A stretch of 64,000 nt of DNA. It comes from Syntrophomonas sp. Lineage in GTDB: Bacteria > Bacillota > Syntrophomonadia > Syntrophomonadales > Syntrophomonadaceae. A program made the translations under genes and the position numbers. Below, piece by piece: positions 1-16,845 of the stretch; within the stretch, counting starts at the first letter, position 1; the number at the start of each line of letters is the position of its first letter. The DNA lies in assembly GCA_016841875.1 (NCBI GenBank), contig JAENYG010000004.1:123289-187288 (forward strand), in the 5' to 3' direction. Under the pieces are notes generated by a model, which saw nothing but the letters and a program-made list of their open reading frames with translations, was not told the origin of the DNA and did not search any database.

Positions 1-155
1 CGTCAGCATTCGCCGTTACATTCATTTCAATCCACGCACCCACGCAGGGTGCGACAACCATTGACCCGTCAGCATTCGCCGTTACATTCATTTCAATCCA
101 CGCACCCACGCAGGGTGCGACAACCATTGACCCGTCAGCATTCGCCGTTACATTC
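1..155. repeat. Tandem exact spacer-repeat duplication (at least three copies)
   Basis: The spacers at 56-89 and 122-155 are identical over 34 nt, and the partial spacer at 1-23 equals their last 23 nt. The repeat-spacer unit of 66 bp is therefore present at least three times in tandem. Exact copies at the leader-distal side suggest duplication by recombination or slippage rather than fresh acquisition. Confidence 0.9.
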
Positions 156-2718
156 ATTTCAATCCACGCACCCACGCAGGGTGCGACCCCAGGTAGCCGG
201 GCAAGATATGGGTGTGCTCAATATTTCAATCCACGCACCCACGCAGGGTGCGACCAAAGAAAAGAACGGTTATTGGATGAGCAATGAAATTTCAATCCAC
301 GCACCCACGCAGGGTGCGACATTGATTATACTAGTGGTTGCGGGTCATATATTAATTTCAATCCACGCACCCACGCAGGGTGCGACCCGACCTGTACTAT
401 TCTGTGACTTGCTATGGCAGATTTCAATCCACGCACCCACGCAGGGTGCGACCGGCGACGTTATGCACGGGCTCGACCATATGGTAATTTCAATCCACGC
501 ACCCACGCAGGGTGCGACACACCGGGAATCAAACCGCAACGGGCACATGGCCATTTCAATCCACGCACCCACGCAGGGTGCGACTCAAAGTCGTACGAGA
601 CAGGCAGATAGTAAGCCTCATTTCAATCCACGCACCCACGCAGGGTGCGACTTGACACCCGCTCTCTGCTTCTGCCCCCCTGTTATTTCAATCCACGCAC
701 CCACGCAGGGTGCGACCATAATTCCATGCCCCTTTCGATTACATCTAACTATTTCAATCCACGCACCCACGCAGGGTGCGACGGAGAGCAAGGGCATTAT
801 CACTATAATCAGTGGATTTCAATCCACGCACCCACGCAGGGTGCGACAATGCTGGTTTTTGCAGATGTTTTACTTTCGGCAAATTTCAATCCACGCACCC
901 ACGCAGGGTGCGACCCCTGAGATATGGGTTGTTTATATCGGGCTTCTTATTTCAATCCACGCACCCACGCAGGGTGCGACTGTGGTGTTGCTGGGGTTGG
1001 GTTGTTGTTTATGCGATTTCAATCCACGCACCCACGCAGGGTGCGACTATTGATGAATTAATTGAGCCTACAACGTGGCAGATTTCAATCCACGCACCCA
1101 CGCAGGGTGCGACTACCGAGGGGATAACCCTGGGTAATATTTGTGATATTTCAATCCACGCACCCACGCAGGGTGCGACGTTAGGCCGAACCGCCTTCCT
1201 TACGTCTTCTGGATTTCAATCCACGCACCCACGCAGGGTGCGACTAAGCTCTCAAAAATACTTTGCACTATGGTAGATTTCAATCCACGCACCCACGCAG
1301 GGTGCGACCATTAAGCATCAATTATTCCTACATACCAAGACGATTTCAATCCACGCACCCACGCAGGGTGCGACAATATGTGCTAAAAGCTCAGGCCGCA
1401 GAAGCCGAGATTTCAATCCACGCACCCACGCAGGGTGCGACTTTATTTGGCAGGCGGACCGTGGAGGTCACAATTATTTCAATCCACGCACCCACGCAGG
1501 GTGCGACATTTCATCCACAGTCAAAAACCATGAGTTACTGCCTATTTCAATCCACGCACCCACGCAGGGTGCGACGATAGGGCAAGTTAAGCCCTTGCTT
1601 AAGACACAAATTTCAATCCACGCACCCACGCAGGGTGCGACATTTACTACAAGGTTAATGGCTTCTTCCATCTTATTTCAATCCACGCACCCACGCAGGG
1701 TGCGACTTGACCAGGCAGGCCCGTAATGCCAGATTTGATTATTTCAATCCACGCACCCACGCAGGGTGCGACAGGAGTGATTATTATGCTTGACTTAAAG
1801 GAACTACATTTCAATCCACGCACCCACGCAGGGTGCGACTATAAGTTCCTTTAAGGTTCTTGGTATTTAAGATAATTTCAATCCACGCACCCACGCAGGG
1901 TGCGACGGTGGGTGTTAGTTAATGACTGAATTGCAGGCAGCAATTTCAATCCACGCACCCACGCAGGGTGCGACGCAAGGGTAGATTATGCAGCATCTAA
2001 TCCGGATATTTCAATCCACGCACCCACGCAGGGTGCGACTGGTGAGCCAGGAGAGTCTTTTGACATAACGTCGATTTCAATCCACGCACCCACGCAGGGT
2101 GCGACAATGAGCCGACTGTACAACGTGCATCAAAAACATCTATTTCAATCCACGCACCCACGCAGGGTGCGACACAGTATTTTCATGCTCGGTGTACGCT
2201 CCTTTGTTATTTCAATCCACGCACCCACGCAGGGTGCGACTACGCAGTAGTTTGCAAGGCACGGGACAAATGGCAGATTTCAATCCACGCACCCACGCAG
2301 GGTGCGACTAAGGGCATTAAATTTAAGCGCAGAGATGATCCGATTTCAATCCACGCACCCACGCAGGGTGCGACGAAAGGTGGGAGGATGGATAATGGCT
2401 GATTTTTGATTTCAATCCACGCACCCACGCAGGGTGCGACTTTAGGGATATATTTACTCAACATTGCTTGACGATATTTCAATCCACGCACCCACGCAGG
2501 GTGCGACTCAGGGAGATATAGACATCCTAAAAGCTGATACGATTTCAATCCACGCACCCACGCAGGGTGCGACGGTGATTACAAAAAAATAACCTTATAT
2601 AATGCCATATTTCAATCCACGCACCCACGCAGGGTGCGACTCTTAGGAGGTAACTCATGTTAACGATGAAACAAGATTTCAATCCACGCACCCACGCAGG
2701 GTGCGACATGGCTGATTA

Positions 2719-2853
<135 letters not shown>

Positions 2854-3636
2854 TTACTTTCAGGTGTCGGAATTTCAATCCACGCACCCACGCAGGGTGC
2901 GACAGCAGGACTTTTACAGTGCGTTTTCCTATAGCCAGATTTCAATCCACGCACCCACGCAGGGTGCGACTACTCTGCCAACTACACGGGCACGACCCGT
3001 GACCCATTTCAATCCACGCACCCACGCAGGGTGCGACTTTGACATAAAATATACCTTCACCTTCGCTGGTAAACGATTTCAATCCACGCACCCACGCAGG
3101 GTGCGACTTTGAGCTATAACAATATTTTGCTTTATGATTCTGATTTCAATCCACGCACCCACGCAGGGTGCGACCCGGTCCGGTATCGATTGAGCCATCC
3201 ATATAGTATTTCAATCCACGCACCCACGCAGGGTGCGACCGGGCCGGGCTTTCCGCTCCAATTTGCGTCCCTATATTTCAATCCACGCACCCACGCAGGG
3301 TGCGACGTATGGCAAACGGGTGGGAGCCACTACCGAACAAATTTCAATCCACGCACCCACGCAGGGTGCGACCCGTCTGCCATACCTACGATAAGTATCG
3401 TGGCGCATTTCAATCCACGCACCCACGCAGGGTGCGACTAATATCATTGTCTGCAGCGTATTGATTAGCGTATTTCAATCCACGCACCCACGCAGGGTGC
3501 GACGGTCTGTTAGCCAGATGCTGGGCATTGTTGGGGTATTTCAATCCACGCACCCACGCAGGGTGCGACTGCAGTGTATATGTGGGTGCCACTGGCCCGA
3601 TCCGATTTCAATCCACGCACCCACGCAGGGTGCGAC

Positions 3637-3738
3637 TGCCGTACTGGTATCGTTGCCACTTATTAAGTTGTAATTTCAATCCACGCACCCACGCAGGGTG
3701 CGACCCGTACTGGTATCGTTGCCACTTATTAAGTTGTA
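3637..3738. repeat. Adjacent near-identical spacers differing by 2 nt at one end
   Basis: The spacers at 3637-3672 (36 nt) and 3705-3738 (34 nt) are identical except that the first has two extra bases (TG) at its left end. In crRNA orientation the left end is the PAM-distal 3' end, and the PAM-proximal ends are identical. Confidence 0.9.
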
Positions 3739-5630
3739 ATTTCAATCCACGCACCCACGCAGGGTGCGACTTACCTGGTGTGCGAATATTCGGCGGGGAG
3801 ATACAATTTCAATCCACGCACCCACGCAGGGTGCGACATAATGGCAATAAAAAAGGTTTTTATAAAGATTTAATTTCAATCCACGCACCCACGCAGGGTG
3901 CGACTAGTGTCAGGCCGGAGCAAACCGAAGAAGAATCGATTTCAATCCACGCACCCACGCAGGGTGCGACTTATATGTGGAGCAAGCAAGGGTTGACTAC
4001 AAAAATTTCAATCCACGCACCCACGCAGGGTGCGACTAACCTTTCCATAACCGTTACGCTCTTTGATCCAATTTCAATCCACGCACCCACGCAGGGTGCG
4101 ACTTTGCGCCACTCTTCCCATAACTGCTCATCCTCCGGATTTCAATCCACGCACCCACGCAGGGTGCGACCTTGCGCTCGATGCAAGCATCGACTACATT
4201 CTGAATTTCAATCCACGCACCCACGCAGGGTGCGACCCGATTTCTTGTATCTATTGGCCATGTAACAAATATTTCAATCCACGCACCCACGCAGGGTGCG
4301 ACGCAGGTGCATCGGCAACGGTAAAGATAGTACCCCTATTTCAATCCACGCACCCACGCAGGGTGCGACGAGATTCCAAAGGCTGAAAAAGATGCTGCAG
4401 ACATTATTTCAATCCACGCACCCACGCAGGGTGCGACATTGACAGCAGATGCCACCTTGACCTCTCTTTTAGATTTCAATCCACGCACCCACGCAGGGTG
4501 CGACAGGTCTCCGGCCATGGCCACCACTGAAGCAGCAATTTCAATCCACGCACCCACGCAGGGTGCGACACTGGCCACCGGGGCGGCAATCGGGCCCTTT
4601 GGGATTTCAATCCACGCACCCACGCAGGGTGCGACAGCCAGTTTACTAGCACCATGAACAATATGTCAAATTTCAATCCACGCACCCACGCAGGGTGCGA
4701 CTAGATTAATTGAATTAGCATTAAATAATCAACTAATTTCAATCCACGCACCCACGCAGGGTGCGACTTTATAAAATAAATTAAAAAGGAGTTGATACCT
4801 ATAATTTCAATCCACGCACCCACGCAGGGTGCGACAATTGGGAGACATAATGCTTTAACTTTGTTATTCTTAATTTCAATCCACGCACCCACGCAGGGTG
4901 CGACACTTGTTATAGGCCAGACCTTTATAATAAAAATATTTCAATCCACGCACCCACGCAGGGTGCGACGAAGTGATTGTAAGACCGGTGGTGGGTTAAG
5001 CATATTTCAATCCACGCACCCACGCAGGGTGCGACCATGCAGTAACAGGGGAGACCGATAGTAATGTGATTTCAATCCACGCACCCACGCAGGGTGCGAC
5101 CTGAAAACATAAAAGCATGGTCCAAAATCACACTAATTTCAATCCACGCACCCACGCAGGGTGCGACTCTGGCACTAATTGCAGGTTGAGGGTGTCGTCT
5201 ATATTTCAATCCACGCACCCACGCAGGGTGCGACGGCATCATCCCAACCATAGGCGGTATCGCATCGTTATTTCAATCCACGCACCCACGCAGGGTGCGA
5301 CTGGCAGTAACATGGGGAGCAACTACCCTTAAAGTATTTCAATCCACGCACCCACGCAGGGTGCGACATCGAAGAACTTAAACATGTTGATCTTTTAATC
5401 ATTTCAATCCACGCACCCACGCAGGGTGCGACACAATAGAGTTTGGTACGGGGACGCTTCTTGCTATTTCAATCCACGCACCCACGCAGGGTGCGACTAT
5501 ATGGCATGGTCAGATGGATCTGGGGCGGTGAATTTCAATCCACGCACCCACGCAGGGTGCGACTGAGGGGGCGCAGGTACATGGAACAGGAGTTGTATAT
5601 TTCAATCCACGCACCCACGCAGGGTGCGAC

Positions 5631-5733
5631 CTGGACAGCTGGAGCTTCCAAAACGGGCGGAGCCGATTTCAATCCACGCACCCACGCAGGGTGCGACCCT
5701 GGACAGCTGGAGCTTCCAAAACGGGCGGAGCCG
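5631..5733. repeat. Adjacent near-identical spacers differing by 1 nt at one end
   Basis: The spacers at 5631-5665 (35 nt) and 5698-5733 (36 nt) are identical except for one extra C at the left (PAM-distal) end of the second. They are among the four newest spacers. Confidence 0.9.
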
Positions 5734-5832
5734 ATTTCAATCCACGCACCCACGCAGGGTGCGACGGTCAAGTATCGTATCTTCCCGATCATCGTTCGGT
5801 ATTTCAATCCACGCACCCACGCAGGGTGCGAC

Positions 5833-6001
5833 AGCAAAATTGAACAAAAATATGTTCATTACCTAAGACTTTTGTTCAATTTTTGTCCTATAATTATTAA
5901 ATTACATCACAACCCATTATATATTTTTTTTTCATCCGAAGATTTTAACTATATTCACGGTGCGAAGGCTCTAACAAATTCATGTTCACTAAGTGTTCGC
6001 A
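5833..6001 (-). promoter_or_regulatory. CRISPR leader with a 14-bp inverted repeat
   Basis: This AT-rich, gene-free stretch lies between the last repeat and the cas2 stop codon, the expected place for a leader driving the array leftward. It contains a perfect inverted repeat, AAAATTGAACAAAA at 5836-5849 and TTTTGTTCAATTTT at 5870-5883, starting 4 bp from the first repeat. A third TGTTC half-site lies inside the loop (5853-5857). Near cas2 there is a small AGTG-TTCG-CACT hairpin (5992-6003). The role of the inverted repeat is unknown; it could be an integration signal, a regulator site or part of the cas operon terminator. Confidence 0.75.
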
Positions 6002-6292
6002 CTAAATTATTAGTGTACCCTCAACGTCATAGGACTCCTTTGCACCTATATGATCGACTTTATTTTTGTAATTCTTTCCCAGATAATAAAACCGCAAGCT
6101 ATCTACATCTTTATCAATAATTTGTTCAAGTTTATGCTGCACCTCACGGCATTTAGCTGCATCTAGTATACACTCAAAGACTGAATTCTGTACACGTTGA
6201 CCATAATTCAAGCATTGCTTCGCAACCTGACGCAAACGCTTCCTTCCAGCCGGTGTTTGTGTATTTACGTCATAGGTTATTAAGACTAACAT
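6002..6292 (-). CDS. cas2: CRISPR-associated endonuclease Cas2 (type I-C)
   Basis: This 96-aa protein starts MLVLITYDV, the typical ferredoxin-like Cas2 first strand, with the conserved metal-binding Asp at position 8. Cas2 dimers bridge two Cas1 dimers in the spacer-integration complex. A longer reading frame runs upstream, but the residues before MLVLITYDV overlap cas1 and do not resemble Cas2. The ATG at 6292 has a GGTGAT-like ribosome binding site and lies 8 bp after the cas1 stop. It is the last gene of the cas operon and is followed directly by the leader. The length is normal for the family. Confidence 0.95.
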   Translation of the reverse strand: MLVLITYDVNTQTPAGRKRLRQVAKQCLNYGQRVQNSVFECILDAAKCREVQHKLEQIIDKDVDSLRFYYLGKNYKNKVDHIGAKESYDVEGTLII

Positions 6293-6300
6293 TTTATCAC

Positions 6301-7332
6301 CTACTTCCACATAAACGGCGGATACCCATCCAAATCGCCGCGAATAAATCTGGCCAAAAGCATCGCCTGGGCATACGGAACAAGTCCCCATGCTATTTTT
6401 TCTTGTAAAAATGGATGTGTAATTTTCTCCTGCTTCCTACTTTGCCAAGCTTTCAATATTGTTTTTCTTGTATCATCATCCATAATAACCGCACCATTTT
6501 CTTTTTGAGTAAAACCCTCTGCATTTACTTCTCTTTTGTTAATTAAAGAAATGACAAATCGATCTGCGTAAACCGAACGCAACTCCTCCATCATATCAAG
6601 AGCAAGTGAAATTCGCCCTGGTCTGTCTCGATGTAAAAATCCGACATAAGGATCAAGTCCAACTGTTTCTAGTGCAGCCGCAGCATCATGGGCCGAAAGC
6701 GTATAAACAAATGACAACATTGCATTAACATTATCAAGCGGTGGACGTTTATTCCTGTAATTAAAATAGAAAGAATCTTTTTGTTGAAGAATTAAATCTT
6801 CAAATACACTAAAATACTGCGATGCTGCTTCCCCTTCATAACCTCGTAGTTGTTCTAAATCTTCACTTTGCTGAATTAATTTCATAGAATTTACAAGAGT
6901 TTTAGAAACACCTTTCAACTTATCAACATCCAGTCGTGTTGCGTAGTCGCGAGTTGCACGTTCAATCACCCAACGAGCATTATAAACTTTTCCCAGAAGA
7001 AAGTTTCTGGCAATTTTGTTGCTTTCCTCCACATTATCCGAAAGCCTATATTGGGCCTTTCTTAGAGTTACATTACCTCTAACCTCGCCAACTACTCTGG
7101 AAAGAAATTTACCACTTTGTTTCATAAAACTTAAGGCAATATTACGTTTTGCACATGCACCCATTAATGCTGGACTTGCGCCAGTATAACCAAAAGCAAC
7201 AATGCCTTCAAGATTATGTAATGGAATTCGCGAGAGTTCTTTTTCTTCTTTTAATATCACAACATTTTCTCCGTCAAGTGATAAATAGGTATTTGGCGAA
7301 GTGACATAAACTGTATTTAGCAACTTTCTCAT
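6301..7332 (-). CDS. cas1: CRISPR-associated integrase Cas1 (type I-C)
   Basis: This 343-aa protein begins MRKLLNTVYVTSPNTYLSLD, a start typical of type I-C Cas1, and is full length. Cas1 is the metal-dependent integrase that inserts new spacers at the leader end. The conserved acidic/His regions are visible as GYEGEAAS near residue 165 and LHRDRPGR followed by LALDMMEEL near residues 230-250. The start overlaps the end of cas4 by 4 bp, indicating translational coupling. With cas4 and cas2 it forms a complete adaptation module, and the uniform repeats and re-acquired spacers suggest it is or was active. Confidence 0.97.
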   Translation of the reverse strand: MRKLLNTVYVTSPNTYLSLDGENVVILKEEKELSRIPLHNLEGIVAFGYTGASPALMGACAKRNIALSFMKQSGKFLSRVVGEVRGNVTLRKAQYRLSDNVEESNKIARNFLLGKVYNARWVIERATRDYATRLDVDKLKGVSKTLVNSMKLIQQSEDLEQLRGYEGEAASQYFSVFEDLILQQKDSFYFNYRNKRPPLDNVNAMLSFVYTLSAHDAAAALETVGLDPYVGFLHRDRPGRISLALDMMEELRSVYADRFVISLINKREVNAEGFTQKENGAVIMDDDTRKTILKAWQSRKQEKITHPFLQEKIAWGLVPYAQAMLLARFIRGDLDGYPPFMWK

Positions 7333-7997
7333 TCATCCACCTCCAAAAGATTATTCTTGATATATCCTATAGCGGAGGGGTTTTTACATAACTTCGGCAT
7401 ACAAACCTCAACAAGCGAACAGGCTTTACAACTTTTCGGCAGTTTAACTTTAGGGGTATATCTTTTGTCATATAATTCGTGCATTTCTTTAAATATAGTT
7501 TTAACGTGCCCGCGCAAACCATCATCAAGTGCAACTTTAAGCCTGCGTTTTGTTTCTCCATAGAACAAAAATGCTTCGGGAATTTCACATAATAACATTT
7601 CCTCAAGACACATAGCCTGTGCACATAGCTGCAGAACGTCGGCTTCATTTTCTTTTGGTTTCCCGCGTTTATACTCTACCGGAACTGGCTTATAAGTTCC
7701 ATCCCTACCGAATATATTCACCCCATCCGAATCTTTATGCAGTTCAACTACATCGCAAGTTCCAGTTGTGCCGAGTGTACGCGAGAATATTCTCATTCCC
7801 CGAGAAATTATCAGATCTCCACGCTTTTCCTTAATGGTGTTATCATGTGTTTTCTCATGAAGAATCTCGCCCTCAATTGTGCGAAGGTTATCCTGCCATT
7901 GCTGTTCTATATGTATTAATGCCCACTGGCGTTTACAAAATGCAAAGTGCTGTATCCCAGACAACAGCAAGAAATCGTCTTCTTTATATTCCATCAT
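7329..7997 (-). CDS. cas4: CRISPR-associated exonuclease Cas4
   Basis: This 222-aa RecB-family nuclease trims prespacers and selects those carrying the right PAM, working with Cas1-Cas2. A Cys lies early in FCKRQWALIH (about residue 21), and the C-terminal cluster CKACSLVEVCMPKLC supplies the other iron-sulfur ligands. The nuclease core appears as VEYKRGKP followed by LQLCAQAMCLEE. Two tandem ATG codons open the gene; the first overlaps the cas7 stop codon as ATGA, and the 3' end overlaps cas1. The tight overlaps fit a single operon. Length and order (cas7-cas4-cas1-cas2) are those of type I-C. Confidence 0.95.
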   Translation of the reverse strand: MMEYKEDDFLLLSGIQHFAFCKRQWALIHIEQQWQDNLRTIEGEILHEKTHDNTIKEKRGDLIISRGMRIFSRTLGTTGTCDVVELHKDSDGVNIFGRDGTYKPVPVEYKRGKPKENEADVLQLCAQAMCLEEMLLCEIPEAFLFYGETKRRLKVALDDGLRGHVKTIFKEMHELYDKRYTPKVKLPKSCKACSLVEVCMPKLCKNPSAIGYIKNNLLEVDE

Positions 7998-8878
7998 ATC
8001 ATTCTAATACACTGTACTTCTCTTGGAATTTCTTCTGTGTTAACACTTATACTATAATCAGAATATCTTCTAGCTGGTTTTTTTTCATCAATACGATTAA
8101 TTGTTACAGTATCGAATAACTTATATGCTTGAGTATTTCCAAATTCACTTTCATGCTTAAATACAATCAATTCTCTAACATTCATTTTCCCTCTTGCCGC
8201 AGAATGATCGTGTTCAAACATGTTTATAATTGCTTCCCACAAAAGTTTTATATCTTCCTCCGAAAATCCTGTTACATTTTTTGCTAAATTGGCCGATATG
8301 TAACCTTCTGCTCTATAGAGAGCGTACGGTACGATGTGTTTTCTACCCATTTCCGTTTCTTTTTTCTTAAAGTCTGCTTCTGTTGTAATCGCAACTCTTG
8401 TTATAGTAATTTCCTGTTGAACTATTGGGTCAACACTTCTGGCAAATCCAATTTGCACAGGACCTCTAACTTGTCCACAGTTTAATTTTGCCTTTACAAA
8501 AGTCGTCATAACGGCACCAAATGTTCTTATATCAAAGAAGTTCGCACACATAAAATCCCGAATCTGACTATCCTTTTCGCCCTTGCTCTTTTGTGCTTCT
8601 TCCTCTTTGATACCCAAATATTCATAAGCTAACTTATCACTGGTGTTTAAGGGAATACCATCTTTGATATATATTTTGTAACCCTTACTGTCCCCTTTCA
8701 CTGTTTCAACATAATTTCTGATTTTTCTTTTTAAGCATACATCCGTAACAATGCCATAGCCTGTTTCCGCATCTATTCTGGGCATATTCCCGGCATCAGG
8801 GTCCCCGTTCGGGTTTCCATTTTCAACTTCGAATATAATTACAAATTCATACCTGTTCTTAATTACATCGCTCATCAT
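7994..8878 (-). CDS. cas7: Cascade backbone protein Cas7 (Csd2, type I-C)
   Basis: This 294-aa protein has the Csd2/Csh2 N-terminal signature YEFVIIFEVENGNPNGDPD and IVTDVCLKRKIRNYV. Several Cas7 copies coat the crRNA spacer along the Cascade backbone. The start ATG overlaps the cas8c stop codon (TAATG arrangement) and the end overlaps cas4. Length and order match type I-C. It would be the main protein covering any crRNA-like guide made from 11420-11548. Confidence 0.96.
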   Translation of the reverse strand: MMSDVIKNRYEFVIIFEVENGNPNGDPDAGNMPRIDAETGYGIVTDVCLKRKIRNYVETVKGDSKGYKIYIKDGIPLNTSDKLAYEYLGIKEEEAQKSKGEKDSQIRDFMCANFFDIRTFGAVMTTFVKAKLNCGQVRGPVQIGFARSVDPIVQQEITITRVAITTEADFKKKETEMGRKHIVPYALYRAEGYISANLAKNVTGFSEEDIKLLWEAIINMFEHDHSAARGKMNVRELIVFKHESEFGNTQAYKLFDTVTINRIDEKKPARRYSDYSISVNTEEIPREVQCIRMI

Positions 8879-10659
8879 TATTTCTCCTCACTTTTTTTAT
8901 TATTTTTCGGATAGAATGCATTTTTTTGATGGTAGTAGCCTAAAATGAATACGCCTTGTTCTTCTAACGATAAATTTGCTGGAAATGGATTCTTTTCCAT
9001 ATCTAGTTTGTCTAAAATATCGGCTATCCTTTTATCACTAGCATATCCGTAGTCTGCTTTGGAAATATGGTGTTGCGATAATCTTAACAACATTGGAAAA
9101 ACTGACGCCGGTGTGGCACAAGCTGATGTAAAATACCGGTCTTTAATCGTTGTATTAATTCCTGGACTGGCATCTTGCTGTGCCTTTTCTAAAACTGCAA
9201 ATAATCTTCCTAAGATATAAGTGCTGTTTTCGCTTTGCTCATTCAGGGCCATCGTTAATACCTCCTCGAATTTATTTGTGTTTCTTGATAAATACGCTTT
9301 GATTATTGACACCTTATAATAACTGATATCTTTTTCCGCTTTAATTCTTAGCATGATGGAATTATATAGGCTTGCAGGATATCGCGTACCGGTAATAATC
9401 GCCTTGAGTGTAGCGCCAGCCATTAACGGTGTAGCTACTTTATCCTTAGACGTTGGAGATACTGTTTCGTTTAACAATCTCCATATGGAAAAAGTATCAG
9501 GATCTGTAGGATATTGTTTCTCTATTTTTAAATCTTCGTAATGATTTCCTATTTTTTTCACAAATTCCCCAAAAGAGTTAGTAATATAAAATCTGACCGC
9601 TAATCTGGCTGCATTTGGAGATATCGCAAGGATATGGAAGTTTGTTTTTTCATCAAAAGCATCGGATAATTCACCGATGGGTTTCCCTTGGGCTATTTTC
9701 TCGAAAATAGATTTAATTTCCCTTGCCGCTACTTCATCATGAACTGAATTCTCTCCTTTACTTACTTCCAGGCCATTTATATATAAGGACATAAAATCCT
9801 GATAAATTTGTTTTGGACTTTCTGCCCAAAAAATAATGGTTGCATCGCCTAAATTTAGTTTATGAGAACTATCTGCTAAGAGGAAATGTAAAACTGTGGT
9901 ATAGGCAAAAGTTGCATATTCACTTACCGGTGCATTCAAACCCTGCTCTTTTTCACGACCGTAAGACTCATAGGCGCGTTCATTAAAAGAAACCAGCGAA
10001 CCGCCTACAGATTGTGCACCCCGAACCCCCTTGATACTTGGGTGTAATCGCGCAATGGAACTCTCTTTGCCAGTAACTAGGCATTGCATAACATTTGTAT
10101 AATCTGAATTGCTCTTATGTTTTTCCCAAGCATGTCTGATTTCCCGGTTTTGATGAACATATTCTCCGCCATTAATTTTAAACACAAAATTTGCAACAGA
10201 TATTTCATCTAAATATTCGATGAGCGCAGGATGTTCCTTTGCTTTATCAGCATCCCAATGACTCACAAAATTGATAATCGCCTGTGCTGTCACATGATCA
10301 ACATCTTTTAATACTTTTATATGTAATTGCTTAAATGCTTCAAAACACGCTTTGGATCTTTCCGGTTTTCCTTTATTATCTATTCCAAATATATAGGTTG
10401 AATTTTCACATAGAAAATTTGATTTTATGCCGACTGATTTCTTTTCTTGTTCAGGCACTTCCATACTTTGCGGAACTTCTACTATTTTTTTTCCCCGCTG
10501 AGCACCTATCTTGAGAGGAATGATATTTAATAATTCACCTTCTAATGATAAATTAACAGCATATGAAACATTCGCCTTGCTGTAGCCCAATTTGGGTATG
10601 TTGCTATCCTCATCATTTGCCAGGATCTCATAATATTTAACTAAAGACTGTAAAATCAT
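8878..10659 (-). CDS. cas8c: Cascade large subunit Cas8c (Csd1)
   Basis: This Csd1-family protein of 593 aa begins MILQSLVKYYEILAND. I chose the ATG at 10659 because it overlaps the cas5c stop (ATGA) and follows a GAGGTGG ribosome binding site; an upstream in-frame start would add five residues inside cas5c. Csd1 features visible include the N-terminal SLVKYYE segment, the central NFVFKINGG region and LGRLFAVLEKAQQDA near residue 490. Cas8c recognises the PAM and recruits Cas3. In type I-C the gene also supplies the small subunit (Cas11c) by internal initiation; a start near residue 470 (MALNEQSEN) is a candidate but was not tested. Confidence 0.95.
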   Translation of the reverse strand: MILQSLVKYYEILANDEDSNIPKLGYSKANVSYAVNLSLEGELLNIIPLKIGAQRGKKIVEVPQSMEVPEQEKKSVGIKSNFLCENSTYIFGIDNKGKPERSKACFEAFKQLHIKVLKDVDHVTAQAIINFVSHWDADKAKEHPALIEYLDEISVANFVFKINGGEYVHQNREIRHAWEKHKSNSDYTNVMQCLVTGKESSIARLHPSIKGVRGAQSVGGSLVSFNERAYESYGREKEQGLNAPVSEYATFAYTTVLHFLLADSSHKLNLGDATIIFWAESPKQIYQDFMSLYINGLEVSKGENSVHDEVAAREIKSIFEKIAQGKPIGELSDAFDEKTNFHILAISPNAARLAVRFYITNSFGEFVKKIGNHYEDLKIEKQYPTDPDTFSIWRLLNETVSPTSKDKVATPLMAGATLKAIITGTRYPASLYNSIMLRIKAEKDISYYKVSIIKAYLSRNTNKFEEVLTMALNEQSENSTYILGRLFAVLEKAQQDASPGINTTIKDRYFTSACATPASVFPMLLRLSQHHISKADYGYASDKRIADILDKLDMEKNPFPANLSLEEQGVFILGYYHQKNAFYPKNNKKSEEK

Positions 10660-11318
10660 TTGACCACCTCGCAAGCTGACAAATCAATAATCCCGTCACA
10701 CATAACTGCTCTAAAAAACATGGGTTTAATATCTTCCGGATCCGTAAAATCCATATCATAGAGCATATACCCAAGTTCTGTTTCTCCTATCAAGCCGGAT
10801 TTGGGCACGTCATCCTCAACCAATCTAAAATTTGCCGGAAATTCTCTGCAGCCAAAACAAGGATTATGATAACATTGGCCTTTTCTCATCCTCCTAAGCG
10901 CGATATTATAGTGTTTTTCGATTGTATCCGTTTCTCCGGCCTTATCAGTTAATTCAAAGTGCGCTTCAATGATATAATGAACATTTTTAAGCACAATTGA
11001 CGCTCTTTGTTGTCTATCTTCATTCGTATTGATGTATAAGGGTTTAGCGCCACCGCCGATAACCGAATCAACGGATCTTGCCGATATTTTGGAGCTGACT
11101 TCGTTTCTTCTAATATTGGTAAATTCAATCGGATTGTAGACATGTATCTTGTCTATGCGCCAGATAATCGCGGGTTTCCAGTAAATCGAATCTATAATGC
11201 CCCGTGCTGCAGATGGCGTGATGACGTCATAGCTGACCCGCTCCACTTTCATTTCGGGTCGCGTCATCAGTGCATAATCGCCCCAAACTTCCAACTTAAT
11301 TCCATATCCCACTCCCAT
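10656..11318 (-). CDS. cas5c: Cas5c (Cas5d), pre-crRNA endoribonuclease of type I-C
   Basis: This 220-aa protein begins MGVGYGIKLEVWGDYALMTR and contains KVERVSYDVITPSAARGI, the canonical Cas5d sequence. In type I-C, Cas5 replaces Cas6: it cuts the repeat hairpin and leaves the 11-nt handle TGGATTGAAAT on each crRNA, then caps the 5' end of Cascade. The ATG at 11318 follows AAAGGGG; a GTG one codon upstream is less likely. It opens the cas5c-8c-7-4-1-2 operon, separated from cas3 by 226 bp containing the guide-like unit at 11420-11548. Confidence 0.96.
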   Translation of the reverse strand: MGVGYGIKLEVWGDYALMTRPEMKVERVSYDVITPSAARGIIDSIYWKPAIIWRIDKIHVYNPIEFTNIRRNEVSSKISARSVDSVIGGGAKPLYINTNEDRQQRASIVLKNVHYIIEAHFELTDKAGETDTIEKHYNIALRRMRKGQCYHNPCFGCREFPANFRLVEDDVPKSGLIGETELGYMLYDMDFTDPEDIKPMFFRAVMCDGIIDLSACEVVK

Positions 11319-11328
11319 CACCCCTTTG

Positions 11329-11348
11329 TTCTTATTTTAGTTATTAAT
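11329..11348 (+). promoter_or_regulatory. PAM-flanked protospacer-like target in the cas5c promoter region
   Basis: TTC at 11329-11331 is the type I-C PAM. It is followed by TTATTTTAGTTATTAAT (11332-11348), which matches the first 17 nt after the degenerate-repeat handle at 11477-11493 in 14 positions. The differences are at positions 6, 8 and 12. Positions 6 and 12 are bases flipped out of the crRNA-DNA hybrid in type I Cascades, and 8 and 12 would be G-T wobbles. Identity stops after position 17. The site lies between the putative cas5c -10 element and the start codon. Confidence 0.6.
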
Positions 11349-11357
11349 AATATATCA
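11349..11357 (-). promoter_or_regulatory. Putative cas5c operon promoter (extended -10)
   Basis: On the minus strand the sequence reads TGATATATT, an extended -10 element (TG-N-TATATT, five of six matches), placing the transcript start near 11341 with a leader of about 23 nt before the cas5c ATG. No good -35 is spaced correctly, which extended -10 promoters tolerate. An alternative is TTGGCA-16-TAAATT slightly upstream. Confidence 0.4.
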
Positions 11358-11383
11358 CTACCAATTTACTCCATATTGCAAGT

Positions 11384-11413
11384 TTGCCAATATATTGACT
11401 CAACATTTATATT
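11384..11413 (+). promoter_or_regulatory. Putative promoter of the guide-like RNA
   Basis: TTGCCA at 11384-11389 and TATATT at 11408-11413, with 18 bp between them, resemble a sigma-70 type promoter directed into the degenerate repeat. Transcription would start near 11420. The strand is opposite to the cas genes. Confidence 0.4.
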
Positions 11414-11419
11414 TGACAA

Positions 11420-11548
11420 AGAAAATTATCAATGAAAAAATCCAGCTGTCATTTCTGTTGAAGTGTGGATTGAAATTTATTCTGGTTGTTAATCGAAAAA
11501 ATTATGTCGAGCAGCTAATGGTAGATCATTGGCTGCTTGACGTTTTAT
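11420..11548 (+). ncRNA. Predicted crRNA-like guide RNA (CreR/CreA-like) in the type I-C locus
   Basis: GTGGATTGAAAT at 11465-11476 is identical to the last 12 nt of the array repeat in crRNA orientation and so includes the entire 11-nt handle left by Cas5c; the rest of the repeat is degenerate. AATCCA (11439-11444) can pair with TGGATT (11466-11471), giving a hairpin around the handle. The guide-like part starts at 11477 and its first 17 nt match a TTC-flanked site in the cas5c promoter region. A G-U-containing intrinsic terminator follows at 11506-11548. There is no second repeat. Small RNAs built this way (degenerate repeat plus partial spacer against a cas promoter) are known as CreA and CreR from other type I systems. 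That this unit works so is my inference. No separate toxin RNA was recognised. Confidence 0.6.
11506..11548 (+). terminator. Intrinsic terminator of the guide-like RNA
   Basis: The left arm GTCGAGCAGCTAATG (11506-11520) pairs with CATTGGCTGCTTGAC (11527-11541) over all 15 positions if two G-U pairs are allowed, with a 6-nt loop and then GTTTTAT. Read on the minus strand the two wobbles become C-A mismatches, so the hairpin is better formed in plus-strand RNA. It abuts and slightly overlaps the cas3 stop codon. Confidence 0.65.
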
Positions 11549-13713
11549 ACAAAAATTCCCACACCGGATTCTACGGTAAATTCAAGTCCTGTTTTACCAT
11601 TGTACATATTGATATCCCGCAAAACATAAATCCCATCATTGATAATTTCCACCATACCTGCCCCGTTCATTTTCTCAAACTCATTTCCATAAATATTCAC
11701 TGAATAGGGTTGTATCGCTCTTAAGATAGCCTTATATTCATTAATATAACGAAGCTTATTAATTAATCCTTCTGCTTTCTCATCAAATCCAATGATGATC
11801 GGCACTGTATTTTCATCAATCAATTTGAATTGACCGGCAATTTGCTTGAAGTTGAAATTAAAATTACAACCTTCCGCTCCTTTCTCCATTTCCTTAAATA
11901 CGTTGTTGACATCCAGTCCTTCCTCCCCTTCGAAGTCATATAATTCTTTAAAGTATGTCTCTATGGCTTGGGGAGAGAGGATGTCTTCAAATCTTGTAAT
12001 TATTGTTTTGGCTACTTCAATCGGTCGTTTTATTGAACTCGGCATATTTTTGGTAAAAATGCTTTCCGGCTCAAAAACATTGACGACACCGACATCTAAT
12101 TTATTCTCCCTGTTACATCTCCCTGCAGCTTGCACAATTGAATCGATTCCGGCCATTGATCGATAAACCAAAGGGAAATCAACATCAACTCCAGCCTCAA
12201 TTAATTGCGTGGAAACAACTTTACAAAGCTGTCCATTTCTTAATCTTCGCTTTATTTCATCCAATACTTCGCTCCGATGTTTGGGACACATCCTTGTTGA
12301 TAAATGAAATACCCCCTCTCCATTTAACTTTGCATAGATTTCTATAGCGTGTTTCTTGCTGTTAACGATGCATAAAGCCTGATTGCTGCTGTTTAAGTCC
12401 GCTGCAATTTGTGCTGCTTCCATTTTCCCTCTATTGATTATTCTGGTGCGTCTGAAAAATTCGTATAACGAATTCGTGTTTTCACATATTTCATTGACTT
12501 TTATTTCTTGGGGGAATCTGTCCTTCAATGATGGTTGGGTAGCGCTGCATAATACACAGGTTGATTGATAACTCATGACTAATTCTGAAACAGCCATAAG
12601 ACAGGGCGTAAGAAATTGTGTGGGTAGCATCTGGGCTTCATCAAAAATAATGACGCTGTTGGCAATATTATGAAGCTTTCTGCATTTTGAAGACTTATTG
12701 GCAAACAAGGATTCGAAAAATTGAACATTCGTTGATACAACAATCGGTATATCCCAGTTCTCCGAAGATAATTTCAGTTTATTCAATATTAAATCTTCAT
12801 CATCCTTAAAATCAAAATTGGAGTGATGTTCCAAGACATTCTCTTGGCCAAAAATATCTTTAAATATTTTCCCGGTTTGTTCGATTATGCTTGTATACGG
12901 AATCACATAAATAATTCTCTCCATACCATGCTCAAGGAGATGGTTAATGGCAAATGCAAGTGAGGAAATTGTTTTACCCCCGCCAGTTGGAACAGTAAGC
13001 GTATATAGACCTTTTTCACGTTTTGCTTTTTTGATGCAATAATTTAAAATTTCGGCTCTTTTTTTATTGATTTCCCTTTCAATATTTTTAAAATTACTGA
13101 TATAAAGATTCAGTTTCTCGTTAAAAAGTTGATAATCATAATGAACGCTTCTATCAACTTTACCCATATTTATAAATTCTTCTGTATCTAGAAAATCGGA
13201 ATCTATCAAGCATGAATAGATCATTCTGATGAAAAAAGACAGTGAAAATCCGCCTTTATTTAAAGGTTTTATATTGGGAGGCTTTCCATGTAAAAAATCA
13301 GTAATATTTATCTCTTTTTCAAAATTCGAGTAGTCGGGAAGTTGTTTTGCTCTTTTTAATCGGCCATTTAATGTTATTTCACTTGCAGTATCGCTCTTGC
13401 TGCCACCATCTGGTAGTCCACCATGATGACCCGCAATGCAATATGCTAACAATTTACCAATTATATAAATATTTTTATTTACTTCAATCGCCCCAGCTGT
13501 AGAATGATCAACCCTAATATTAGGATCATTAGTTAATTTTTTTTGAAATTCAGCAGAATACTTTCCTATGTCATGTAACATTCCACACATATAAGCATAA
13601 TCACCATTATTAAAACTATTACCAAAATTTTTGGCTCTGTTAGCAGTATTTTCTGAATGTTCTTTTATACTTTGAGTTTCTAAATCATCTTCTCTCGTAT
13701 GTGCTATATACAT
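11545..13713 (-). CDS. cas3: CRISPR-associated helicase/nuclease Cas3 with N-terminal HD domain
   Basis: This 722-aa protein carries the Cas3'' HD nuclease followed by the Cas3' superfamily 2 helicase. HD residues include H19, the HD pair at 47-48 and HHGG at 96-99. The Walker A motif PTGGGKT is at 242-248, and the motif II variant DEAQ is at 358-361. CSATQP (motif III) and QAAGRCNRE (motif VI) follow. Recruited by Cas8c at a PAM-flanked target, it nicks and degrades the non-target strand. It is the first cas gene. Its upstream region holds a possible TTGACC -35 near 13764-13769 with no clear -10. The 226-bp gap to cas5c allows cas3 to be controlled apart from Cascade. Confidence 0.97.
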   Translation of the reverse strand: MYIAHTREDDLETQSIKEHSENTANRAKNFGNSFNNGDYAYMCGMLHDIGKYSAEFQKKLTNDPNIRVDHSTAGAIEVNKNIYIIGKLLAYCIAGHHGGLPDGGSKSDTASEITLNGRLKRAKQLPDYSNFEKEINITDFLHGKPPNIKPLNKGGFSLSFFIRMIYSCLIDSDFLDTEEFINMGKVDRSVHYDYQLFNEKLNLYISNFKNIEREINKKRAEILNYCIKKAKREKGLYTLTVPTGGGKTISSLAFAINHLLEHGMERIIYVIPYTSIIEQTGKIFKDIFGQENVLEHHSNFDFKDDEDLILNKLKLSSENWDIPIVVSTNVQFFESLFANKSSKCRKLHNIANSVIIFDEAQMLPTQFLTPCLMAVSELVMSYQSTCVLCSATQPSLKDRFPQEIKVNEICENTNSLYEFFRRTRIINRGKMEAAQIAADLNSSNQALCIVNSKKHAIEIYAKLNGEGVFHLSTRMCPKHRSEVLDEIKRRLRNGQLCKVVSTQLIEAGVDVDFPLVYRSMAGIDSIVQAAGRCNRENKLDVGVVNVFEPESIFTKNMPSSIKRPIEVAKTIITRFEDILSPQAIETYFKELYDFEGEEGLDVNNVFKEMEKGAEGCNFNFNFKQIAGQFKLIDENTVPIIIGFDEKAEGLINKLRYINEYKAILRAIQPYSVNIYGNEFEKMNGAGMVEIINDGIYVLRDINMYNGKTGLEFTVESGVGIFV

Positions 13714-15700: not shown

Positions 15701-16456
15701 CTATACCGCTTCCTGTTTTACTACTTCCCAGCACCCGAATCCCTGATTATTTTTAAAACCCAGACCAGCTTCATAGGCTACCTTTATTAGTTCCGGACAG
15801 CCTTTAAGCCAGTAAATGCCCGCATATCCTTTAACAACCGTTCCTCGATAGTTGAGTATTTTTTCAAATTTCTTCTCCTGGCTGCCGTTGGGAATAATCT
15901 TAATTTCCTTGTTATCTGGCCGGTAACCATGCACCACCTCATATTTGGTGAGCAGATTATTCTTGGCTATTTCTGCAAACTGGGATTGCCAGGGGGAGTA
16001 ATAGTTGGTGTATTTTTTTTCTTCGCGCATGCTGGTAGTACATCCTACCAGTGGTGAAAGCATTTTTATCTGTACTTTCTTTCCGAACTCAATACATTCG
16101 TGCATATCTATCCGCTCGATTTGCACTTCATTATTGCCCAGAAATACTAGATCTGATCTTTCCAGTTTGTCAGCCAGATCAAGAATGAATTCATCAACGA
16201 CAGAGGATATAATGAGCTTTGCTGGAGGAAACAAGGTGATTCTCCCGGTCTCCTTATTAAATTTAAACTTCCCCATCAGACGTGAGAACGTAAAGAGATT
16301 GAACTTCCCATTACATATTCCTTTACCTTCCTGGTGAAGAAATTTACTGTAATCCCTATCTAGTTGATTTTTATACATAAACCCTTGCAGGATGTGATTA
16401 TATTGTACTGGAAGTACGATCTCCTGGTCAGAATTAAATACTACACTAATTCGCAT
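15701..16456 (-). CDS. cas6: Solitary CRISPR endoribonuclease Cas6
   Basis: This 251-aa RAMP-fold protein has the Cas6 N-terminus MRISVVFNSDQEIVLPVQYN and the C-terminal glycine-rich loop GLGFKNNQGFGCWEV. Cas6 cuts pre-crRNA in type I-A/B and type III systems. Type I-C uses Cas5c instead, and no repeat suited to Cas6 is visible in the window. I start at the second ATG (16456) because it aligns with the remnant at 13981 and with the family; an ATG three codons upstream (16465) lies only 2 nt after the ribosome binding site. It is either a relic or serves another array elsewhere in the genome. It has its own terminator. Confidence 0.9.
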   Translation of the reverse strand: MRISVVFNSDQEIVLPVQYNHILQGFMYKNQLDRDYSKFLHQEGKGICNGKFNLFTFSRLMGKFKFNKETGRITLFPPAKLIISSVVDEFILDLADKLERSDLVFLGNNEVQIERIDMHECIEFGKKVQIKMLSPLVGCTTSMREEKKYTNYYSPWQSQFAEIAKNNLLTKYEVVHGYRPDNKEIKIIPNGSQEKKFEKILNYRGTVVKGYAGIYWLKGCPELIKVAYEAGLGFKNNQGFGCWEVVKQEAV

Positions 16457-16845
16457 ATTGTACATATCCCTTCCACTTATTACCTACACCAAGTATTATT
16501 ATAATTCTACTACCCCAGAATGCCTATAGATAGCTTCTTTTACCGTCAAATTCTTTCATATTTTGCATGTTTGCAACAGATATTGAGCGCTATGGTGTTT
16601 TTGCCAAATTAGAATTTTATTATAATTATTGTTAAAAGTCATTGATAATAGTGAGTTTATTTAATATTGGAGTTTCTTTGGGGCACTGTCCGTTTTTGTC
16701 AAATAATAATGGCTAACCTGTTTGCAGAAGTAGTTTTTCTATTATTATTTGAGTCTATTCGATTTTAATATTATACTTGGTTTTACTAGACTTACGGTTA
16801 GGCCATATAATTCTAAAAGCCTTAACCTGTTACAGGGGATATATA
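16457..16845. promoter_or_regulatory. Intergenic region with an AT-rich inverted repeat before the MATE gene
   Basis: The region separates divergent cas6 and the MATE gene. TCAAATAATAAT (16699-16710) and ATTATTATTTGA (16741-16752) form a perfect 12-bp inverted repeat with a 30-nt gap about 95 bp before the MATE start. It could be an operator or leader hairpin. No gene or other clear signal was recognised. Confidence 0.35.

Follow-up and report, generated by a model that had tools for sequence, protein, structure and literature searches.

CreR RNAs repress cas promoters in type I-B, I-E and V-A CRISPR systems and respond to crRNAs and to anti-CRISPRs (PMC13131331, PMC12737573). Type I-C is absent from the CreR subtypes listed in these two reviews. 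It is among the commonest CRISPR subtypes, and little is known of its regulation. The I-C Cascade uses Cas5c in place of Cas6 to process the crRNA and to clamp its handle (PMC7684278). For CreA, from a I-B system, only positions 1-5 and 7-11 are needed, positions 6 and 12 are ignored and the PAM is TTC (PMC8501985). I-B Cascade pairing over at most 26 nt represses without cutting in the presence of Cas3 (PMC10551041).

The window, i.e., the whole 64,000-nucleotide stretch of Syntrophomonas sp. DNA that we analysed, holds a complete type I-C locus with cas3, cas5c, cas8c, cas7, cas4, cas1 and cas2 together with I-C repeats. The gap between cas3 and cas5c measures 223 bases, and its plus strand carries, in this order, a target with TTC, a promoter-like TTGACA-17-AAAAAT, a degenerate repeat, a guide and a strong hairpin. 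The features are as follows.

24..5870, minus strand: I-C array of more than 90 repeats, extending past the window start.
6002..11321, minus strand: cas5c-cas8c-cas7-cas4-cas1-cas2, the operon half downstream of the putatively regulated promoter (NCBIfam TIGR01876, TIGR01863, TIGR02589, TIGR00372, TIGR03640, TIGR01573).
10656..11321, minus strand: cas5c, likely starting with the ATG at 11318.
11329..11331, plus strand: TTC PAM of the target site, from the sequence and from TTC in 20 of 21 perfect non-flip matches in the two surveys combined (below).
11332..11348, plus strand: target (protospacer) TTATTTTAGTTATTAAT, matching the guide at 14 of 17 positions, in the 5' leader of cas5c.
11363..11390, minus strand: putative cas5c promoter TTGGCA-16-TAAATT (alignment A1, consensus scan); relatives have TTGACA-17-TAAATT.
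11413..11441, plus strand: putative creR promoter TTGACA-17-AAAAAT (alignment with relatives, consensus scan); relatives have TTGACA...TAAAAT or TATAAT.
11450..11465, plus strand: degenerate repeat stem of 6 pairs including one G-T (catttc tgtt gaagtg), from folds.
11466..11476, plus strand: intact 11-nt crRNA handle TGGATTGAAAT, identical to the end of the array repeat.
11477..11493, plus strand: pairing part of the guide, 17 nt, TTATTCTGGTTGTTAAT; the pseudo-spacer continues to about 11505.
11504..11547, plus strand: strong hairpin with a U-run, probably a terminator that serves creR and cas3 from both directions (fold, z-score, kept in relatives).
11545..13713, minus strand: cas3 (HD and helicase), upstream of the gap and not in the regulated half.

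From the sequence evidence we are highly confident that the window unit is a single-unit regulatory CRISPR, a CreR of type I-C, which would direct Cascade to its own operon and bring about repression with no attack by Cas3. The evidence presented here is sequence anatomy, conservation, guide-target coevolution and a pairing code. As expected for a CreR, the crRNA-like unit stands outside the array beside its own cas genes, and its degenerate repeat retains the processing stem and the handle according to folds and a stem test. The repeat remnant GTGTGGATTGAAAT directly precedes the guide and shares its final 12 bases with the array repeat (GTGGATTGAAAT), and the guide starts at 11477, the exact position where a spacer would begin. 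A second repeat 3' of the guide was considered and rejected, only a possible GTCG remnant being present there, which merges into the terminator hairpin. Both strands of the hairpin at 11504-11547 carry U-runs, and it probably terminates the cas3 as well as the creR transcript, which would set cas3 apart from the remainder of the operon; a simple terminator scan did not flag it. The weak creR -10 (AAAAAT) in the window counts against the CreR reading. A pattern search of 398 genomes of the phylum found the exact guide in the window only, other matches with 3 mismatches being at chance level, and searches of plasmid and viral contigs gave no copy of the guide. A lone cas6 (TIGR01877) lies at window positions 15701-16465 (minus strand), near an I-C locus, which can do without Cas6; those of its downstream genes that were checked encode a MATE transporter and fatty-acid metabolism, with no cas gene among them.

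The initial annotation had described the site as TTC followed by 17 nt that differ from the guide only at positions 6, 8 and 12, and sequence comparison confirms this, with 14 of 17 positions in agreement. The wobbles it proposed at 8 and 12 fit the sequence, where a guide G stands opposite a non-target A and would give rG:dT. The wobble at guide position 8 is an extra one and counts against the CreR reading. Beyond 17 nt, where pairing had been said to stop, identity is at background. The best TTC-flanked match in the gap is 11329, the next best TTC site agreeing at 7 positions, and no other TTC site in the 3.97-Mb genome is free of mismatches outside 6, 8 and 12. The cas operon promoter region is matched in the manner of a CreR, with PAM and seed complementarity that is incomplete overall. 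Chance similarity between two AT-rich stretches has to be weighed here, and it gains from the 66 of 20,000 dinucleotide-preserving shuffles of 11318-11545 that reached at least 14 of 17 matches with any PAM allowed. With TTC required, the shuffling check proposed in the annotation gave such a match in only 2 of 20,000. The similarity moreover recurs in relatives and, with unrelated guides, at other loci; the replication and the all-locus controls described below already refute chance, to which we assign next to no probability. The initial observation holds; a single locus by itself gives moderate odds, with the remainder supplied by relatives.

The annotation had further placed the site on an extended -10 element of cas5c, and this is not supported. 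The promoter conserved across relatives, with its -35 (TTGGCA, 11390-11385) and -10 (TAAATT, 11368-11363) on the minus strand of the window, lies upstream of the site. The target would therefore fall in the 5' leader, where it spans roughly +8 to +25 and reaches the ribosome-binding site; Cascade bound there is still expected to cover the cas5c start point and the -10. CreA and CreR resemble each other in anatomy (PMC8501985, PMC12737573), which gives some ground for a CreTA or CrePA module whose guide represses a toxin instead of cas genes. From the targeted promoter, however, cas5c is the first gene reached; its ribosome-binding site is good, no other reading frame intervenes and a toxin gene is absent there. 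This explanation is hardly credible.

Three I-C loci (L013, L014 and L015), two of them from Desulfosporosinus and one from a Clostridiales MAG, encode Cas5c proteins 86-89% identical to that of the window and have the same gap, with repeat, guide, terminator and target retained. Desulfosporosinus fructosivorans is one carrier of such a unit. Their guides and targets (TTATTCTAGTTATTAAT/TTATTGTAGTTTTTAAT in L013, TTATTTTAGTTTTTAAA/TTATTATAGTTATTAAA in L014 and TTATTTTAGTTATTAAT/TTATTTTAGTTTTTAAT in L015) show mismatches at 6 or 12 only, and in L014 a T-to-A change at position 17 is found in guide and target alike. The stem has diverged in sequence from the array repeat; it nevertheless folds beside the same 11-12-nt tail in the window, L013 and L014, and this stem with its 11-nt tail resembles the canonical repeat. 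The alignment shows one conserved promoter per strand, TTGACA-17-TAAATT into cas5c and TTGACA-17-TAAAAT into the guide. In L015 (4690-4860, minus strand) the guide ends a mini-array with canonical repeats and two extra spacers in front, each containing a long palindrome (AACGTTTC..GAAACGTT and AGAGCTAC..GTAGCTCT). This mini-array could illustrate how a creR arises from, or reverts to, an array.

The canonical repeats and additional spacers of L015 would also suit a decaying array relic, in which the guide is a functionless, leftover self-matching spacer. Against such decay, the stem and flanks diverge without loss of the handle, the stem pairing, the promoter, the terminator or the pairing of guide with target, and guide and target covary. 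We consider a relic very improbable.

A survey of about 100 further I-C loci from Bacillota was carried out with the rule of an isolated exact handle and, within 1.5 kb, a TTC site matching at least 11 of the 12 non-flip positions in the first 14. A target was found for 7 of 32 isolated exact handles, against a background of 1 in 1472 for two-mismatch handles. When every triplet was tried as PAM, perfect matches were obtained with TTC (7) and TTT (1), and when any two positions were left free, the pair (6,12) explained 7 guide-target pairs and every other choice at most 1. Because the rule had been framed on these data, 79 new loci were collected for replication, with the rule unchanged; they came from Actinomycetota, from the class to which one carrier belongs and from the family of the window. 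Targets were found for 18 of 30 exact handles, with a background of 2 in 1340 and none for 30 reversed guides; TTC was present in 13 of 13 perfect cases and (6,12) was again the best free pair (13 versus at most 5).

When the 213 loci are taken together, a TTC target lies near 25 of 63 isolated exact handles, compared with 1 of 1,260 shuffled regions and 3 of 3,776 tests of a guide in a foreign locus. The loci are related to varying degree, so these counts overstate the number of independent events; judged by eye there are roughly 15 unrelated guide groups. Some 60% of isolated exact handles have no such target, a point against the CreR reading; many of them lie inside genes or at array or contig ends. 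L025 and L220, which have two-mismatch handles, were counted as background, and array spacers of L106 and L176 that passed the search were rejected as low-complexity or duplicated spacers. L177 (4205-4300) was retained as a doubtful case, either a creR or an unrelated hairpin: beside cas3, its guide and target make up an 18-nt near inverted repeat that mismatches at 6 and 12 alone, and the handle ends in GAAGC. Isolated exact handles with AT-rich guides and no target under the strict rule at L256:7398 (plus strand), L230:4803 (plus strand) and L279:4017 (minus strand) are probably further creRs with other PAMs or added mismatches.

The pairing code comes from 26 distinct guides that make up 29 I-C guide/target pairs. 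All 29 pairs match at positions 1-5; positions 7-11 match in 26-29 and positions 13-16 in 25-29, while position 6 matches in 4, position 12 in 7, position 17 in 14 and positions 18-25 in 5-12, which from 18 onward is background. Since positions 15-25 were not used in the search, the match at 15 and 16 (27 and 25 of 29) and the drop past 17 are unbiased. Where related guides differ at non-flip positions, the target follows in 552 of 606 comparisons (552 versus 54), and where they differ at 6 and 12 in 7 of 180 (7 versus 173); these are pairwise counts that share loci and are not independent. A stem of at least 4 pairs, with at most one G-T, abuts the handle in 22 of 29 units, against 16% of control sites. 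Upstream bases that pair with the handle confounded an automatic measure of stem offset, and the direct stem test was used instead. The freedom at 6 and 12 that the annotation had assumed recurs over 29 pairs with many unrelated sequences, and CreA shows the same insensitivity (PMC8501985). The annotation's interpretation of PAM, seed and short hybrid as Cascade binding without Cas3 destruction likewise gains support from the 29-pair code and from PMC10551041.

At most loci the targets lie at the 5' regions of cas5c or cas3, and two layouts dominate. In the first, creR lies between cas3 and cas5c, antisense to both, with the target before cas5c (the window group, L171, L180, L229, L231, L238, L239, L240, L243, L244, L247, L250, L251, L252, L254, L257 and L258). 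In the second, creR is found upstream of cas3 and its target is close to where cas3 starts (L028, L175, L210, L215, L255 and L259). An ordinary antisense RNA on the cas5c mRNA leader, blocking translation at the ribosome-binding site, would fit the window family, whose guide is complementary to the leader and adjoins that site. An RNA of this type would need neither PAM nor handle and would leave 6 and 12 no freedom, and all three features recur. Relative to the mRNA, targets are found in either orientation, and one in L175 lies upstream of the -35, which speaks for DNA binding and against antisense pairing; at many other loci such pairing is impossible, the target having the same sense as the cas mRNA or lying upstream of the -35. 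Antisense action is very unlikely.

Another point against the CreR reading is that the creR promoter itself, and not clearly a cas promoter, is targeted in L144, L249 and possibly L177. At L144:2922-4271 (minus strand) and 4400-4450, the creR-like unit that targets its own promoter is flanked by cas3 and by a divergent gene (MRDDVALVSRALEQVDTLILLVGGNPLP...). By eye this gene resembles CARF-nuclease proteins, and it may link I-C repression to an ancillary gene. In L249 (10075-11040, minus strand) a creR with a target in its own promoter stands before a gene (MINGFYLDESGNNGF...) that precedes cas3 on the same strand; this gene is DUF3800-like by eye and is a possible guide-controlled ancillary gene.

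For the CreR reading of the window we propose the following mechanism. The plus-strand promoter would produce a short RNA with the degenerate repeat stem, the intact I-C handle, the 17-nt guide and the terminator. Cas5c would cleave at the base of the stem, and the RNA, with a predicted 5' end at UGGAUUGAAAU and a predicted length of the handle plus about 30 nt, would be loaded into Cas5c-Cas8c-Cas7 Cascade. This complex would read the TTC PAM, pair through positions 1-5, 7-11 and 13-17 with the leader of cas5c-cas8c-cas7-cas4-cas1-cas2 and block transcription. By covering the cas5c leader, start point and -10, Cascade would lower expression of the Cascade and adaptation genes, and cas3, behind its own terminator, would not be directly affected. 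Because pairing ends at about 17 nt, Cas3 would not be licensed and the chromosome would survive, as other subtypes suggest. By analogy with published CreRs, the loop might hold Cascade at a set point and be released when array crRNAs or anti-CRISPRs deplete free Cascade; the I-C array would be the source of competing crRNAs.

We consider it likely that RNA-guided self-repression is general in type I-C systems of Bacillota and Actinomycetota. It would have been acquired with guides of many unrelated sequences and would obey a single strict pairing code (TTC; 1-5, 7-11 and 13-16 paired; 6 and 12 free; stop at about 16-17), which sets the amount of pairing that represses but does not license Cas3. 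Should the RNAs work in the proposed way, I-C Cascade would control its own level through a guide that can be recognised from sequence. Their pairing profile would then be a natural measure, taken from many lineages, of the hybrid length at which Cascade binds and represses but Cas3 is not triggered. The autoregulation of I-C systems, and how it responds to anti-CRISPRs, become directly testable, and isolated repeats near cas genes would be flagged as functional and not as debris.

The CreR kind is already known. The literature searched, which did not include the original CreR article, describes no I-C version that combines one repeat with a terminator and a code of 16-17 nt. Such a version is apparently undescribed, although an earlier mention of I-C is possible. 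Like the CreRs of I-B, I-E and V-A systems (PMC13131331, PMC12737573), the window unit is a crRNA-like gene beside cas genes, with partial complementarity to a cas promoter and no toxin. It differs in its I-C effector, with processing by Cas5c and no Cas6, in its one degenerate repeat and predicted intrinsic terminator, in pairing that extends to 16-17 nt, and in its position between cas3 and cas5c, where it would control the Cascade and adaptation half only. With CreA of CreTA from I-B haloarchaea (PMC8501985) it shares a degenerate mini-CRISPR, the TTC PAM, pairing at 1-5 and 7-11 and indifference at 6 and 12; whereas CreA represses an RNA toxin, the target here is the cas5c operon and pairing includes 13-16. 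Truncated-crRNA I-B Cascade (PMC10551041) likewise combines short pairing with repression without cleavage despite Cas3, but its guides were engineered and the subtype is different.
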